Shown here: piece after piece, positions 7,588 through 14,677 of the stretch
How the letters are laid out: every line of letters starts with the position of its first letter
How positions within the stretch are numbered: position 1 is the first letter of the stretch
Assembly: GCA_947176965.1 (NCBI GenBank)
Contig: CAMWSU010000002.1
Span: forward strand, 1 to 64,000
Direction: 5' to 3'
Length of the DNA stretch: 64,000 bases
Source: an uncultured Lachnospiraceae bacterium
GTDB taxonomy: Bacteria; Bacillota; Clostridia; Lachnospirales; Lachnospiraceae
Notes under the pieces: generated by a model
What the model was told of the DNA's origin: nothing
The model's input: only the letters and a program-made list of their open reading frames with translations
The model's database searches: none
Made by a program: the position numbers and the translations under genes

Positions 7588-7766
7588 ATCGTCCCCCCAG
7601 CCTCCATGCTGCCGCTTCGCGGCAACCCTAATCTGTTAGGAGAATGCCCGTATCTTGGGCATTCTCTCGTGTGAGACTTAGAACTTCTTCACGAAGCAGC
7701 CTTTGCTGCGAGTGTTAAGGAAACACTGATTTAATCAGTGTTTCCTTAGAAGTTCTTCTCACACTA
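7588..7766 (-). other. Intercistronic branched RNA-structure candidate B
   Basis: Outer stem 7669-7676/7757-7764 (GTGTGAGA/TCTCACAC), inner stem 7680-7688/7748-7756 (9 bp), hairpins 7696-7709 and 7717-7747 (14 bp stem), plus flanking hairpins 7640-7666 (10 bp) and 7611-7623. Confidence 0.8.
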
Positions 7767-8399
7767 TAGAGCGGGCAGCGTCAGCGTCATCCCCGGCTCT
7801 GCGTCAAGCGGATTGGCAATCCCGTTTTGTATGGCGATCTCGCGCCAGCGTTCCACATCTCCGTATTCCTGCCACGCATAATGCCAGAGCTGTTCGTTTT
7901 CATGCAGCACGCGCACCTTTGTGCGGTCGGGCGATTCAAAAGGCGACTGCCGCCTGCTCTCATCCGCATTGAGAAGGGAGCGGAACGATATGTCGGCTTT
8001 TGCCCGCACGGGCGTACCGTCCGCCAGAAACATCGTGTAGCTCGCCTTGACACTTGTCACATACCCGTGAAATTTTAATTTTCCCCAGCAAAAGGAAACA
8101 TTTGGCGGCCGATGCAGCGAGCCGTCAATCTTCAACAGCTTTGTCAGCTCCCCCACCTTCGCCGCCACACTGCTTCCGCTCTCCCCCGCCTCTGCCGTAG
8201 GGGGCACATACGTATCAAAATAAAGCGTCATATCCAGTGTCATGCTCTCCCCGGCAATAAATTGGCTGACAGACCCATCCAGTCCGGGAATCTTCTTTTC
8301 ACTATAAGAGGCGCTCTGCGACAATTGATAGGATTCGGGATTAAACATGACCTCGATCTTGCTCCCGCCCTCAACCTCTATGACTGCTTTTTCCGTCAT
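7764..8399 (-). CDS. LysM-containing baseplate/tube-adaptor protein (gp53-like)
   Basis: VEGGSKIEVMFNPESYQLSQSASYSEKKIPGLDGSVSQFIAGE... and C-terminal LysM-like EQLWHYAWQEYGDVERWREIAIQNGIANPLDAEPGMTLTLPAL. Confidence 0.9.
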   Translation of the reverse strand: MTEKAVIEVEGGSKIEVMFNPESYQLSQSASYSEKKIPGLDGSVSQFIAGESMTLDMTLYFDTYVPPTAEAGESGSSVAAKVGELTKLLKIDGSLHRPPNVSFCWGKLKFHGYVTSVKASYTMFLADGTPVRAKADISFRSLLNADESRRQSPFESPDRTKVRVLHENEQLWHYAWQEYGDVERWREIAIQNGIANPLDAEPGMTLTLPAL

Positions 8400-8404
8400 T
8401 GTGA

Positions 8405-9223
8405 CTAACCTCTCCGCAAACGTTCCAAATGCATTTCCCGCTCCATGCGCTTCATGACCTCACCCGTGATCTTTCCCATATCAGGCTCCGGCCCCTGTAT
8501 GGCGGTCTCCACGTTCTTTTGCAGCTGAAAAAGGAGCGTGCTTTGCTTTTTTACCTGTTCTTCCAGATCGGCGACCGTGCGCTTTGTCATGACAAGCTCC
8601 TCATGCGTGATCTGCCGCTTAAAAATAGGATCTTCTTTTGCCTGCCTTTCCGGGTTATTTTCGTAATATGCTTTACTGAGAACCTTGACCAGATCGCGCT
8701 CTGCCTTCTTTGCCAGATCGGGACGGCTTCCGCGGTTGACGAAGATCGTCGCAATATCCCGAAACACCGTCAGCTCTTTGCCCACGCTAAGCTGTCCGCG
8801 CCATGCTTCCTTTGGTTTTAAGAAATGCTCCAGCCGCTTGACGATACTTAGGGCTAACGCATCCCGGTAAACGGCGCGCTCCTGCTTTGACACAATCCGA
8901 CTCTGCCAGGTCTGATTCAGGCGCAGCAGCAGCTGATAAAAATGTTGATCAGAGGAAGAGCTGGACTGCTGTTTTAAGAAAATAAGGATCGTACCCGGAA
9001 AACCACCCGTGCCAAACGAAACGCCGCGCGCCATCACCCGCTCCGCAAACGCACTGCCGCCGCGCTCTTTCCACCATTCCGCAGCTGCAATCTCTCTCCC
9101 GCTCCGCCTGCGGACACGCTCGGCGAACTTCTCCCCGCGCCCGAGCCGCCTGCTGCCCCTTCCCGCAAACCCGTCTTCACGCCGCTTTCGGACACGCTCC
9201 GCAAACTCGCCCTCCACGGACAT
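8405..9223 (-). CDS. eCIS-associated protein of unknown function with Arg-rich repetitive N-terminus and coiled-coil-like C-terminus
   Basis: 272 aa; three FAERV motifs in the first ~67 residues; C-terminal heptad-like EELVMTKRTVADLEEQVKKQSTLLFQLQKNVETAI. Confidence 0.65.
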   Translation of the reverse strand: MSVEGEFAERVRKRREDGFAGRGSRRLGRGEKFAERVRRRSGREIAAAEWWKERGGSAFAERVMARGVSFGTGGFPGTILIFLKQQSSSSSDQHFYQLLLRLNQTWQSRIVSKQERAVYRDALALSIVKRLEHFLKPKEAWRGQLSVGKELTVFRDIATIFVNRGSRPDLAKKAERDLVKVLSKAYYENNPERQAKEDPIFKRQITHEELVMTKRTVADLEEQVKKQSTLLFQLQKNVETAIQGPEPDMGKITGEVMKRMEREMHLERLRRG

Positions 9224-9250
9224 ACGCCCACTCCCTTCGCACCGTTTCGT

Positions 9251-9763
9251 CTACTCTGTATACAAAATCCCATCGTGCACAATCTCAAACCGCTCAACCA
9301 ATATGGAATTACCCAGCGCATCCAGATTGCCCACCTCCCGCTTTGTGACAATTCCGTCCGTGATCCAAAAAATCCCGGAGGTCAGCTGCCCTTTTGCATC
9401 CAACAGGATGACGGTCAGCCATGTGCCAAGCCGCATACCTGGTTTTAACTTGGCAAAACGGCTCTCAGCCGGGATGATTCCATGCTCCAACACAAGCGGC
9501 GCATGCTTTTTATGAGGCACCGTCAGGATATGCGGGGCATGATTCCTTCCTCCCTCCGCAAGCTCCTCATACTCCATCGTACACTCTAATCCGGACACTT
9601 TAGAAAAACGCATTTTCTTCTCTTCCGTGATTTGTGCCCTTGAAGCAGACGCCTGCCCCGCCATCACTAAAAAACGATAATCCACCGCATAGCTATTCTG
9701 TATGAAATCCTTCTTCGTTCCGTCCGCCACTCTGACACCCCCATGATTCCGCGAAGCAACCAT
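9251..9763 (-). CDS. Phage-tail-tube-like protein (gp19-like, second copy)
   Basis: YAVDYRFLVMAGQ...MRFSKVSGLECTMEYEELAEGGRNHAPHILTVPHKKHAPLVLEHGII. Confidence 0.85.
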   Translation of the reverse strand: MVASRNHGGVRVADGTKKDFIQNSYAVDYRFLVMAGQASASRAQITEEKKMRFSKVSGLECTMEYEELAEGGRNHAPHILTVPHKKHAPLVLEHGIIPAESRFAKLKPGMRLGTWLTVILLDAKGQLTSGIFWITDGIVTKREVGNLDALGNSILVERFEIVHDGILYTE

Positions 9764-9795
9764 TGCTGCAAGCTTGAGAAGTACTTCTCACACTA
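9764..9795 (-). other. Short intercistronic GTGTGAGAAG element C
   Basis: Stop TAG (9793-9795) followed by GTGTGAGAAGTACTTCTC; 14-nt palindrome GAGAAGTACTTCTC at 9776-9789. Confidence 0.6.
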
Positions 9796-10340
9796 GACCG
9801 AGAACACATTCTCCGGCTCGTCATTCAACGCCCTGTTGATCTTGGAAATCTCACTGCACCACCGTTTTCTGTCAAGATGACTCATCGCCATAATATCGTC
9901 GTGGCTCCAATGCATATAGTAGGCGATGAACGCCGCCTCCTCATAAATCTGCTCCGCCGGATAACTCGTTATTGACCGGCACTCATAAAATTTACGGGAA
10001 CCTCCGCTTCTTTCCCGCAATGCGGGCAGACCACGCGGTAACACGGCGTCTCCATCGTATTGATCCGCTCATAAAGATCCTGCAAATACGCCAGATCCAT
10101 CGTATAAAGCCCCTCGATCACCCGCGTGTCCACGGCAGGAAGCGTGCCGAGCGACGTGACGACGCGCGCGAGCAGGATCACGGTCAGATAGCTTGGATTC
10201 TGCTGCACTCTTGGATCCTTTAACGGCAGGATTTCGTCCGCCGCATTCGCCATCCGCATTGTTCCCGACTTATGCAGCATTCCGTCCCTGTCCAAATACC
10301 CTCTCGGTAATTCAAATTCATACTCTGTCTGAAATGCCAT
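9793..10340 (-). CDS. Predicted -1 frameshift fusion of the small tail-assembly-type ORF with the downstream DUF6760-like ORF
   Basis: 0-frame ORF 9969..10340; downstream ORF 9793..10044 in the -1 frame; in-phase heptamer A_AAT_TTT at minus 9993-9987; predicted junction ...EVPVNF|YECRSITSYPAEQIYEEAAFIAYYMHW..., about 182 aa. Confidence 0.75.
9956..9993 (-). promoter_or_regulatory. Candidate programmed -1 ribosomal frameshift signal
   Basis: Minus strand GT A_AAT_TTT ATGAGT GCCGGTCAATAACGAGTTATCCGGC: slippery heptamer, 6-nt spacer, hairpin GCCGG/CCGGC with inner ATAA/TTAT. Confidence 0.75.
9969..10340 (-). CDS. Small eCIS/tail-assembly protein (0-frame product)
   Basis: 123 aa MAFQTEYEFELPRGYLDRDGMLHKSGTMRMANAADEILPLKDPRVQQNPSYLTVILLARVV...CPHCGKEAEVPVNFMSAGQ, between the two tube genes. 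Confidence 0.85.
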   Translation of the reverse strand: MAFQTEYEFELPRGYLDRDGMLHKSGTMRMANAADEILPLKDPRVQQNPSYLTVILLARVVTSLGTLPAVDTRVIEGLYTMDLAYLQDLYERINTMETPCYRVVCPHCGKEAEVPVNFMSAGQ

Positions 10341-10480
10341 TGCTATTTTCCGCCTTTCCTCTCATAAAGAATGACCGCAAGGTCATTCTTTGGTGTGAGA
10401 AAGGTTCCGCTTTGCGGAACCGTAGAAAATCTTCGCGAAGCGCCCGCTGGCGTGAGCGTTAGATTTTCTTCTCACACTTA
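10341..10480 (-). other. Intercistronic branched RNA-structure candidate A
   Basis: Outer stem 10393-10401/10469-10477 (GTGTGAGAA/TTCTCACAC), inner stem 10424-10432/10461-10469, hairpin GGTTCCGC/GCGGAACC 10403-10421, hairpin 10366-10391 (11 bp stem, 4-nt loop). Confidence 0.8.
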
Positions 10481-10903
10481 TGATTCGCGCGTCATCCCCT
10501 CATGTGCGATCTCCAGCGTCTCCACCGCGACCTCGGAGGAAGTCGCGTTAAAATCCGGCGCCGTATACTTGATCGGCCACGCGTTGATGACGCGCCAGGA
10601 TGCGACCGGCTTTTCCGTAGCGTCAAGCAGCGTGATCGTGATTGTTTTACGCGTTACTTCCCCGGTCACGCCGTCGTTTAACCAGTCATAGAGTGCGCGC
10701 GAATCCGCCAGACCTTTTTTGAGCGTGATATTTCCATACTTCTTTAATCCCGGTATTTTCATGGGCGTCTGCACCATGTCGCCCTCCCGGTACTCCATCA
10801 CGTCAATGGAAGCGTCGAATCCCGTGACCTCGGAAAAACTGCACGCATCAATCCCATCGATCTCAACTTTATATCTGAATTTTCCGTATGGATAGGTTGC
10901 CAT
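10478..10903 (-). CDS. Phage tail tube protein (gp19-like, first copy)
   Basis: MATYPYGKFRYKVEIDGIDACSFSEVTGFDASIDVMEYREGDM...KYGNITLKKGLADSRALYDW. Confidence 0.93.
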   Translation of the reverse strand: MATYPYGKFRYKVEIDGIDACSFSEVTGFDASIDVMEYREGDMVQTPMKIPGLKKYGNITLKKGLADSRALYDWLNDGVTGEVTRKTITITLLDATEKPVASWRVINAWPIKYTAPDFNATSSEVAVETLEIAHEGMTRES

Positions 10904-10929
10904 ATCCTCTCATCCCCTTTCTTCTCACA

Positions 10930-12666
10930 CTATTGGGAATCGCCCGTTTTCTGGGAGATCCGGAAGATAACAAACTCGGCGGGCTTCACCGGCGCTACGC
11001 CGATCACACAGACCAGGCGCCCGTTATCAATGTCATCCTGACTCATGGTATCACGCCCGATATTCACGAAAAATGCCTCCTCGGGTGAGGTTCCCGCAAT
11101 GGAACCGTCCCGCCACATGCCGAGCAGGAATACCTCGATCGTGCGCTTCACACGCACCCAGAGCACCTCATCGTTCGGCTCAAATACCGCCCAATTCGTA
11201 TTTGCCCTAATGGATTCTTCAATATAAATGAACAGCCGGCGGACATTGATATATTTCCAGCTTGCATTGCTCGTCGCCGTCCGCGCGCCCCACACGCGGA
11301 TTCCCATACCCGGAAAGCTGCGGATCAGATTCACGCCCTTGGGATTTAAGATGTCCTGCTCCCCTTTGTTAAACGGGCAGTCCAATCCGACGCAGGCACG
11401 CACGACCTCGTTTGCGGGCGCTTTATGCACGCCCCTCGTGTTGTCCGTCCGCGCATAAATACCGATGACGGAACCGGAGGGCGGGATTGCAATATTTTTT
11501 TTATCCAAAGGATCAAACACCGTCAGCCACGGGTGATATAACGCCGCGTACTCCGAATCAAATATATCCCTGTGCGCGATGACATCGTCAATCTTCTTTG
11601 CATCACGCGGCAGATCGAGCACCGCGACGCGGCTCGCCGTGTTTTCGCAATGCGCAACGAGCATAAGCTGTACATTCGGATCCGTGATACCCGGCACCGC
11701 CATGATGGACACATTATCATTATCGAGAAACGCCTGAATCCCGCTGCGTTTTCCCGCGCCGTTGTCCGTTCCGATAAAATCCGCCGCCGTGAGCGACGCG
11801 ACGCTGCCGTTGCTTCCTCCGCTTAATGAAACCGAAAGCACCGCTTTTTCCTCATCCCCCTGCGCTAAAGAAAGAAACGGCGATGTGACCGCATCACCCT
11901 CCGGAATCTGACAGGAGACTGCGATCATATCGGATTTCGCCGTCTTTTTTTCAATATAATTGGGCGCATCGATATTAAAAGAAACATTCTCATACAGCTC
12001 CACCTGATCGTCCATGCGCACCTCAAGCGAGAGTTCACAGGTAGAGATGGTCCTTGCCGGAAGTAAATCCTGATCGACAACGCTCTCGTCAAACTCCGAC
12101 GCAAACTCTATGATATTGTCCTGACATTTGACGACACGGTTGTAGGTGACGGTCGTCTTGTCCGTATACATGACAATATCGCCCGCTGCAAATCCTACTC
12201 CGTTCTTGACATGATACCGTTTGCCGCCTGCTGTTTCCAAGATTTCCAGAATCTGTGTCTTTGCCTTGGATGCGGGTGCGATCACAATGTTTAGGTTATT
12301 TCCCCACACACCCGGATTTTTCGCCGTAAATGTTAAAACCGGCGTATCTGCGGGAAGATTTCCCTCCGCCGCCTTTGCGTCCTGTGGCGCAACCCTGGAA
12401 ATGTAGGCTCTCGCGCCCCCGTTGATAAAAAAGTGTTCCACTGCATAGGCAAGAAAGCGGTTCTCCCCGAATTCATTCTCCGAGAGATAACCGCCGTATT
12501 TCCTCTTAAAATCCGCAAAATTTGTGACAAGCTGCGGCACGCCCTCGATTGCTCCGCGTTCTGATAGCCCGACAAACCCCGCCGTGCTCGTTCCGACGCC
12601 CTCCATCGGTTTGCTCCCGGATTCAAATTCCTCTACGTAAACTCCCGGTGATAAGTATTCTGCCAT
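10930..12666 (-). CDS. Contractile tail sheath protein
   Basis: 578 aa; MAEYLSPGVYVEEFESGSKPMEGVGTSTAGFVGLSERG ... RRLFIYIEESIRANTNWAVFEPNDEVLWVRVKRTIEVFL. Confidence 0.97.
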   Translation of the reverse strand: MAEYLSPGVYVEEFESGSKPMEGVGTSTAGFVGLSERGAIEGVPQLVTNFADFKRKYGGYLSENEFGENRFLAYAVEHFFINGGARAYISRVAPQDAKAAEGNLPADTPVLTFTAKNPGVWGNNLNIVIAPASKAKTQILEILETAGGKRYHVKNGVGFAAGDIVMYTDKTTVTYNRVVKCQDNIIEFASEFDESVVDQDLLPARTISTCELSLEVRMDDQVELYENVSFNIDAPNYIEKKTAKSDMIAVSCQIPEGDAVTSPFLSLAQGDEEKAVLSVSLSGGSNGSVASLTAADFIGTDNGAGKRSGIQAFLDNDNVSIMAVPGITDPNVQLMLVAHCENTASRVAVLDLPRDAKKIDDVIAHRDIFDSEYAALYHPWLTVFDPLDKKNIAIPPSGSVIGIYARTDNTRGVHKAPANEVVRACVGLDCPFNKGEQDILNPKGVNLIRSFPGMGIRVWGARTATSNASWKYINVRRLFIYIEESIRANTNWAVFEPNDEVLWVRVKRTIEVFLLGMWRDGSIAGTSPEEAFFVNIGRDTMSQDDIDNGRLVCVIGVAPVKPAEFVIFRISQKTGDSQ

Positions 12667-12814: not shown

Positions 12815-14677
12815 TCAGCTTTTCCCGAGATACTCCTCAAATCTCCTCTCCGGTGCCTCTCCAAGCACCTCGAGGGACGCATCCTGAAAGCGCTCATACA
12901 CCCTCTTTGCACCCGCAATATTCTGACATAAGATCAGACACTCCACCAGACGCTCCATTGTGGAAAGCGCATAGCCATCCACCTCCACCAATCTTTTCAG
13001 ATAACCAACGGCTTCCTCATACCGCCCGTCTGTATACGCCCCGTCCGCAAGCGTCTTCAATATCCAAAGATAACGCTGCTCCACTTCCTCCCTGTATGCG
13101 CCGAGCCATAAATAATCCTCTTCATACAGATATCCCTGCCGATACAGCGCGACAAACTGATCGGCGCGCTCATTTGTCAATGTTTTTCCGCTCTTTAACC
13201 ATGCATAGCAGTCGTCTAACTCTCCGATATCCGATCGCATCCGCGACATATCGAGCGCGTAGGATTGGTTTTTTACAAGCAGACATTCCGCCCCTCCTGC
13301 TGCGGCAAGCGCCCTCCTTAAATATGAGGTCGTCGTGTGGAACAGCACCGCCGCTTTCTGCGCCGGTTTTTCCGGCCACAGCCGCTCCGTCAGCACATCC
13401 CTCGTCACCCATCTGCCATGCTCGTAAAACAGACAGGCAAACAGCTCCTTTGTCTTTTTCGTCCGCCAGACAACTTCGCCCTCCTGACCGCGCACCGAGA
13501 GTGCGCCGAAACATTGCACAAAGAGAGGTGCATGCTTCTCCCTCGCCGCGTTCTCAAGCTTTCGTGCCGCGTTTTTCCTCTCCTCCGCCGTCTCCCCTCT
13601 CCCGCAGAGTTCCTCATACGCCGCAGCCTTCAGCAAAATTTCCATGCGCCGTCCCGCAGACAGCCTGCTCCTTAAAAATCCGCGAAAAAAGCTGTCGTAA
13701 CAATACACCTCCTCCTCGCCCTCCATGCGTGATAAAAACAGATTTTCCCGCATGAGATAGCGGAACATGTCCGCCGCGTCCTTCCGTCCCATCGCATGAT
13801 CGCACACGGAGGGTCTCATCGTTTCCAATACGGAGGATTCCAGCAAAAACTGCTGTGTATCATTTGCCAGCTTCCGGAATATTTCATAGAAAACATACTC
13901 ATAAAGATGTGTCCTGTCAAACAGCGCCGCGCCCGTCGGCTGCGTCCGCGCCTCTTTTAAGTCCATTCCGGCAAACGCGACTCCTGCCGGCCAGCCGCAC
14001 ATAGCCGCATGAATATCCCGCACAACCTGCTCCGACAATTCCCTGCCGGATATTTTTTGAAGCAGTCGCGCAGTCTCCCGTTCCTCAAGCTTTAGTTCGT
14101 CCGCTCTCACCGCCCGCGCCATGCCCCGCATCAGACATGCAGCAAGAAATCCTGGAAAACCGCCCCGTAACGAAAAAAAGAACCGTATTCTCCCCTCCCC
14201 GTACTCCATAAATCGCAGGAGAAAGTCCTGTACCATCTCATCATGAATCACCTGAAACTCATCCAGACAAATAAAAAAACCGTCAGCAGGAAGCGCCGGA
14301 ATGCATCGTGAAAAAAAGCATTCGCTCACCCGATCCGTTCTCCCACTCCCCATCAGCCTCATAATCTCCGCATCCCAAAGATCAGCCTTTATGACACCGG
14401 AAAGCGCCGTGGCGATGCCATATAAAAAACAATCAAATTGATTATCAGATTCGTGCAGCCGATACCAACAGCTCCGCGCCCGATGGCTCCGTGCCCACTC
14501 CGCCATTACAATTGTCTTTCCATAACCTGCACCTGCATGAAACACGACAGCACTTTCATCCCCGTTCTCTATGCTCGCAAGCAGCTTCTCGCGCTGAAGC
14601 CACCAATGCGTTTCTTTGGGGATCTGAAACTTTGACGCATTCCAAATGACAGGCTGCTCCCATGCCTGCTCGTCCAA
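12815..14677 (-). CDS. MalT/STAND-type ATPase with C-terminal SARP/BTAD-like transcriptional activator region
   Basis: Walker A GAGYGKT; FFICLDEFQ Walker B; C-terminal winged-helix LFVQCFGALSVRGQEGEVVWRTKKTKELFACLFYEHGRWVTRDVLTERLWP plus TPR/BTAD-like tail. Confidence 0.85.
   Translation of the reverse strand: MDEQAWEQPVIWNASKFQIPKETHWWLQREKLLASIENGDESAVVFHAGAGYGKTIVMAEWARSHRARSCWYRLHESDNQFDCFLYGIATALSGVIKADLWDAEIMRLMGSGRTDRVSECFFSRCIPALPADGFFICLDEFQVIHDEMVQDFLLRFMEYGEGRIRFFFSLRGGFPGFLAACLMRGMARAVRADELKLEERETARLLQKISGRELSEQVVRDIHAAMCGWPAGVAFAGMDLKEARTQPTGAALFDRTHLYEYVFYEIFRKLANDTQQFLLESSVLETMRPSVCDHAMGRKDAADMFRYLMRENLFLSRMEGEEEVYCYDSFFRGFLRSRLSAGRRMEILLKAAAYEELCGRGETAEERKNAARKLENAAREKHAPLFVQCFGALSVRGQEGEVVWRTKKTKELFACLFYEHGRWVTRDVLTERLWPEKPAQKAAVLFHTTTSYLRRALAAAGGAECLLVKNQSYALDMSRMRSDIGELDDCYAWLKSGKTLTNERADQFVALYRQGYLYEEDYLWLGAYREEVEQRYLWILKTLADGAYTDGRYEEAVGYLKRLVEVDGYALSTMERLVECLILCQNIAGAKRVYERFQDASLEVLGEAPERRFEEYLGKS

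Follow-up and report, generated by a model that had tools for sequence, protein, structure and literature searches.

Positions 1 to 64,000 of the forward strand of contig CAMWSU010000002.1 (assembly GCA_947176965.1), referred to here as the window, come from an uncultured Lachnospiraceae bacterium, the host, and contain an extracellular contractile injection system (eCIS) operon with copies of a strongly folded palindromic repeat at several of its gene junctions. Pfam matches in the operon identify sheath (PF04984/PF17482), tube (PF06841) and DUF6760 genes, together with a second gp19-like tube protein and a CIS_tube gene (PF19266). Four eCIS genes, all on the minus strand, close on the motif TA(G/A)GTGTGAGAAG, with their stop codons at 10932-10930 (sheath), 10480-10478 (tube-1), 9795-9793 (DUF6760) and 7766-7764 (CIS_tube/LysM); all four had been recorded in the first-pass annotation, which was made from the sequence alone. 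The host genome has 28 occurrences of the 10-mer GTGTGAGAAG, compared with 2 of the reversed control.

The element around GTGTGAGAAG is composed of an outer stem, a 9-bp stem, an inner hairpin, an optional third hairpin that gives a three-way junction, and a flanking hairpin. Copies were searched for with R1, a covariance model of the 55-nt core. The operon contains two intact copies (A and B), one decayed copy (C) and, at the sheath stop, one probable scar, all on the minus strand. The core of copy A (10393..10477; 80.1 bits) lies between tube-1 and the next gene and has the outer stem GTGTGAGA/TCTCACAC around the 9-bp stem AGAAAATCT/AGATTTTCT, the inner hairpin and a third hairpin, GGTTCCGC/GCGGAACC; its flanking hairpin, AAAGAATGACC-TTGC-GGTCATTCTTT (10366..10391), has no T-run beyond its own TTT. 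Copy B has the same outer stem, a 9-bp inner stem, more hairpins and a flanking hairpin, GAGAATGCCC-AAGATAC-GGGCATTCTC (7640..7666). The first G of its core (7669..7764; 36.8 bits) finishes the TAG stop of the CIS_tube/LysM gene, and its 3′ module (7601..7630) consists of a short hairpin, GTTGCCGC-GAA-GCGGCAGC, followed by ATGGAGG, the Shine-Dalgarno-like tail of the full-length element. The predicted folds are very stable (−57 kcal/mol, z −7.7 for copy A; −86 kcal/mol, z −9.1 for copy B), in agreement with the large branched structures first described in these two intercistronic gaps. The initial description of copy B holds for its outer and inner stems and its flanking hairpin, and has to be corrected by a nested 31-bp palindrome, AAGGAAACACTGATTAAATCAGTGTTTCCTT (7717..7747, no strand assigned), which belongs to another repeat. 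The sequence GGAAACACTGATT has 12 matches in the host genome and none for the reversed control, so the nested palindrome represents a second dispersed palindrome family. At locus L223 (G268:C41), in a core at approximately 900-972, a different hairpin, TTGCCTTTGGCAA, occupies the same core point, as if this point were open to extra hairpins.

Copy C (9744..9793; 27.8 bits, E 0.0084) lies at the end of the DUF6760 gene. It had been described as collapsed to a palindrome; a degenerate copy is indeed present there, but it is a partly deleted element, and the orthologous copy at locus L031 of the related genome G002 has decayed in a different way. In the sheath/tube gap, which carries the motif alone as had been noted, the solo GTGTGAGAAG (10921..10930) is probably the scar of a deleted copy; L031 has a one-base variant of it, and it is absent in L032/L033. 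Upstream of the sheath gene and on the same strand is a large regulator-like open reading frame with a BTAD domain (window 12815-14677).

Searching the host genome with R1 retrieved 22 copies, 18 of them at 71-86 bits (E <1e-11), and 20 of the 22 lie outside the eCIS operon. The genes upstream of host copies include those for MnmA, MraY, OTCase, peptidase M24, ABC and BPD transport components, an aminotransferase, OAD gamma, SpoVAC/EB, MscS and CoaBC. The five searched genomes of the host genus have 9-22 copies each. Copies were found in 13 of 299 genomes of the family and, in an order-wide draw, in 10 of 392 genomes, all of the same family; in total they are patchily spread over at least 15 genera, all Lachnospiraceae. 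No report of a repeat of this kind in Lachnospiraceae came up in a literature search. Among 80 related eCIS loci, the element was present in two (L031 and L085). The first interpretation, that the elements are devices tuning sheath:tube:baseplate stoichiometry, does not survive these data, since the upstream genes are of every kind and nearly all related eCIS loci have no copy, and an eCIS-specific regulatory element is ruled out on the same grounds and by the 20 host copies outside the operon. The covariance search returned dispersed repeats unrelated to eCIS genes, the outcome set in advance as the one that would speak against a link to eCIS. On the preferred reading the element entered this operon incidentally, and the alternative offered at the outset, a small mobile repeat family, is the one that agrees with the 22 dispersed host copies, the empty sites in relatives and the recent expansion elsewhere that are described below.

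The full-length element measures ~140-175 bp: the palindromic, branched core is followed in turn by a flanking hairpin that varies, a short hairpin at the 3′ side and the ATGGAGG tail. It is modular: the third hairpin is optional, the flanking hairpin varies, alternative 3′ modules and internal deletions occur, and, as in BOX elements, separate modules appear in variable combination. Searched by itself, the 3′ module GATTTGAGATTCCGC matches 20 sites at ≤2 mismatches (control, 2), and some of these sites belong to known copies. Hairpins of the GAAGAATnnn..nnnATTCTTC type, found downstream of the element at L124, also occur alone, some with a T-run after them, which suggests that the flanking hairpin is part of a wider hairpin/terminator family.

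The position of the copies relative to genes is precise. Of 102 copies, 78 have a long sense open reading frame whose stop codon begins −6 to +4 nt from the first base of the element, a placement near the upstream stop that is shared with repetitive extragenic palindromic (REP) sequences, and 5 more have the stop at +16, the TAA of TTCTAA; these reading frames were called mechanically, but a full Pfam domain is present in many of the proteins encoded upstream. Offsets of −2 (TA completed by the element's G), +3 (GTG TGA), −4 and −5 are the most frequent. Among the 77 copies with well-paired outer stems, 63 adjoin a sense stop and 12 an antisense stop. The antisense cases are all at +3, where the TGA built into the arm cuts a chance antisense frame, which means that some of the sense +3 class may be equally mechanical; the −2 to −5 classes cannot be. 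Full-length copies open with the upstream gene's stop, either TAG/TAA or the TGA of GTGTGAG, and close with ATGGAGG, a Shine-Dalgarno sequence that in several cases precedes the next start by 5-13 nt; a co-directional gene follows most copies closely. Because the element supplies both a stop and a Shine-Dalgarno sequence, insertion at such a junction spares both genes.

Comparison with relatives revealed insertion polymorphism. The copy B insertion (approximately 7598..7763, minus strand) is missing at the orthologous L031 site, where TTTAG runs directly into GAGGACGATATGG. Other empty sites were sought with a query of joined flanks in G002 and G003, and were found for L113 in G003 and for L117, L119 and L123 in both genomes, whereas L113 in G002 and L115 in both are deletion derivatives. 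For five host copies, the site is thus empty in G002, G003 or both, as expected of miniature inverted-repeat transposable elements (MITEs). At L117, the reading frames of the relatives end in ...DVEEV(F/I)SDVS and a stop overlapping the next ATG, whereas the host frame ends in ...DVEEV and a stop, followed by the element, GGAGG and the same ATG (reading frames checked). At the empty site of L123 the TAG stop overlaps a GTG start, and in the host the element sits between stop and start. For 11 of the 22 host copies, an orthologous copy is present at the same place in a congener. Two orthologous gene pairs, L165 (G001)/L199 (G004) and L170 (G002)/L196 (G001), carry sub-variants that are quite unlike each other at one and the same stop codon, the result of either replacement or independent insertion. 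In genome G471, which belongs to another genus, several cores are nearly identical and tandem copies are present, indicating recent spread there.

We compared the types of base pairs in the stems, given that selection on a sense-strand RNA is expected to favour G-U over A-C. The outer stem was perfectly paired over 8 nt in 63 of 100 copies, compared with 0.1% of shuffles, its arms came in 24 versions (G-U 15, A-C 9), and the 9-bp stem had 16 perfectly paired versions among the 50 best copies. These 50 copies (46 distinct) gave 771 Watson-Crick, 4 G-U and 4 A-C pairs, and 91 distinct copies gave 1412, 28 and 33, respectively. In the first 13 copies, the varying pairs that stayed paired had changed on both sides, with no one-sided change such as to G-U. 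Host tRNAs detected by ARAGORN showed 47 G-U against 0 A-C, a one-sided control since ARAGORN favours G-U. The early observation that the architecture is kept while the stem sequences differ is borne out; the lack of a G-U excess, however, is unlike selection on an RNA fold alone. The absence of this bias indicates that the pairing is probably upheld on DNA, by hairpin copying, correction or structure-dependent movement, and not as an RNA fold alone.

Together, these results show that the repeats form a dispersed family, palindromic and modular in build, that displays insertion polymorphism at stop-start junctions and bears no relation to eCIS function. The copies in the window are, in our judgement, quite likely to belong to a non-autonomous and probably mobile Lachnospiraceae DNA repeat, for which a BOX/MITE/REP-like family is the nearest class on the best reading. 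A transposase or recombinase that recognises structure would insert the element in trans, and the stems would stay perfectly paired through copying or repair as DNA hairpins. In mRNA, each copy would form a strong hairpin at the stop codon and separate the translation of the neighbouring genes, and this hairpin may slow termination or shield the upstream mRNA as REPs do; given the exact stop-codon position, an RNA effect on neighbouring genes is possible. Several observations weigh against a mobile repeat. No mobilising gene was found in a search that covered Y1 transposases only: PF01797 was absent in the host, G002 and G003, which are incomplete metagenome-assembled genomes, and the Y1 transposases of G001, G004 and G471 had no core copy adjoining them in the loci covered. 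Target-site duplications are not consistent, with short direct repeats at L119 and L123 and no evident ones at L113, L117 or copy B, and the true 3′ end lacks a terminal inverted repeat. In addition, the core of orthologous copies has changed more slowly (~0.05 substitutions per site) than the rest of the element (~0.12), counting only copies that the model still recognises and leaving out one replaced copy by subtraction, and this could mean selection for function. Two specific versions were discarded: an origin from REPs and their RAYT transposases, given the host without a Y1 transposase and no core copy beside those of G001, G004 and G471 in the loci covered, and a terminal TA target duplication or fixed target site, which was inconsistent among the empty sites. 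More tentatively, and with the balance tipping against it, the element could be specialised for operon stop-start junctions, with precise sense insertion, its own stop and Shine-Dalgarno sequence and movement via a structure-recognised DNA hairpin, which would explain complementary-only stem changes with no G-U preference.

A conserved intercistronic RNA element, selected at the stop codon for ribosome release, mRNA processing or 3′-end protection and with copies gained and lost, would fit the recurrence of the stop-codon position across many genera, the very stable folds, the slower change of orthologous cores and the 11 host copies retained at the same place in a congener. We nevertheless regard it as unlikely, because G-U is not in excess over A-C as it is in the tRNAs, orthologous sites are empty or deleted, the two gene pairs with different sub-variants each bear them at one site, and the adjoining genes have no function in common. 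Rfam 15 also returned no match at E ≤ 1 for the window region or at E ≤ 0.1 for 12 further loci, which counts against such an element, and a known RNA family was rejected on this basis. A link to group II introns, raised by the GTGTG start, was dropped, as ATGTG, GCGTG and GTGAG variants occur and no Rfam intron matched. Far less probable is an attC-like folded single-strand recombination site whose structure is recognised by a recombinase exchanging material beside stops: perfectly paired stems of differing sequence right after stops, fixed orientation and no strand-specific tolerance of G-U would all agree with it, but the ends are GTGTGAG-like and the different 5′ arms, mostly GTGTGAGA-like, do not provide the GTTRRRY/RYYYAAC core sites, while the flanks are ordinary operon genes in conserved order and not cassettes. 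Ordinary intrinsic terminators or chance look-alike palindromes hardly merit consideration, for although some flanking hairpins are terminator-like and L114 has a T-run after its hairpin, those of copies A and B have no T-run after them, the 55-nt core is branched and highly significant in 18 copies and most copies precede a co-directional gene, so that this explanation is refuted for the core and only the flanking hairpin could be terminator-derived.

If the copies are indeed a mobile DNA repeat, they would represent a small family targeting operon gene junctions and splitting overlapping genes without breaking them, a route for the evolution of operon spacing and of translational coupling. 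A stem whose two sides change together is not necessarily evidence of a conserved RNA; comparing how often G-U and A-C occur tells RNA folds apart from palindromic DNA repeats, a useful distinction when structured RNAs are sought in Lachnospiraceae.

Among known systems, MITEs such as Correia/NEMIS and RUP (reviewed in PMC2229807) resemble the element in being short and non-autonomous, with inverted repeats at the ends of the core, internal stop codons and turnover between close relatives. They differ in that no regular target duplication is seen here and that GTGTGAGA/TCTCACAC ends the core only, the inverted repeat excluding the 3′ tail of the insertion: the empty sites place a further hairpin and the ATGGAGG tail outside it. 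REPs and bacterial interspersed mosaic elements (BIMEs) of Escherichia coli, which usually number >100 per genome and are associated with Y1 (RAYT) transposases (PMC2817692), are likewise palindromes after genes, in contrast to the 22 copies, larger branched unit and host lacking a Y1 gene found here. The RepRanger paper (PMC12306157), citing Liang, Rudd and Deutscher 2015, reports that a REP lying within 15 nt of a stop stalls ribosomes and reduces translation; a similar stop-codon effect is plausible here, and by analogy the copy after tube-1 or CIS_tube could alter the expression of its neighbours. The nearest analogues in build are BOX (boxA-boxB-boxC) and SPRITE of Streptococcus pneumoniae, described with RUP by Croucher et al. 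2011 (PMC3049150) and similar in being small, dispersed, modular and strongly folded intergenic repeats likely to affect co-transcribed genes. The likeness drawn here is one of build and, compared with BOX, the Lachnospiraceae copies stand exactly at stops in sense orientation, supply a stop and a Shine-Dalgarno sequence, and number ~20 per genome.

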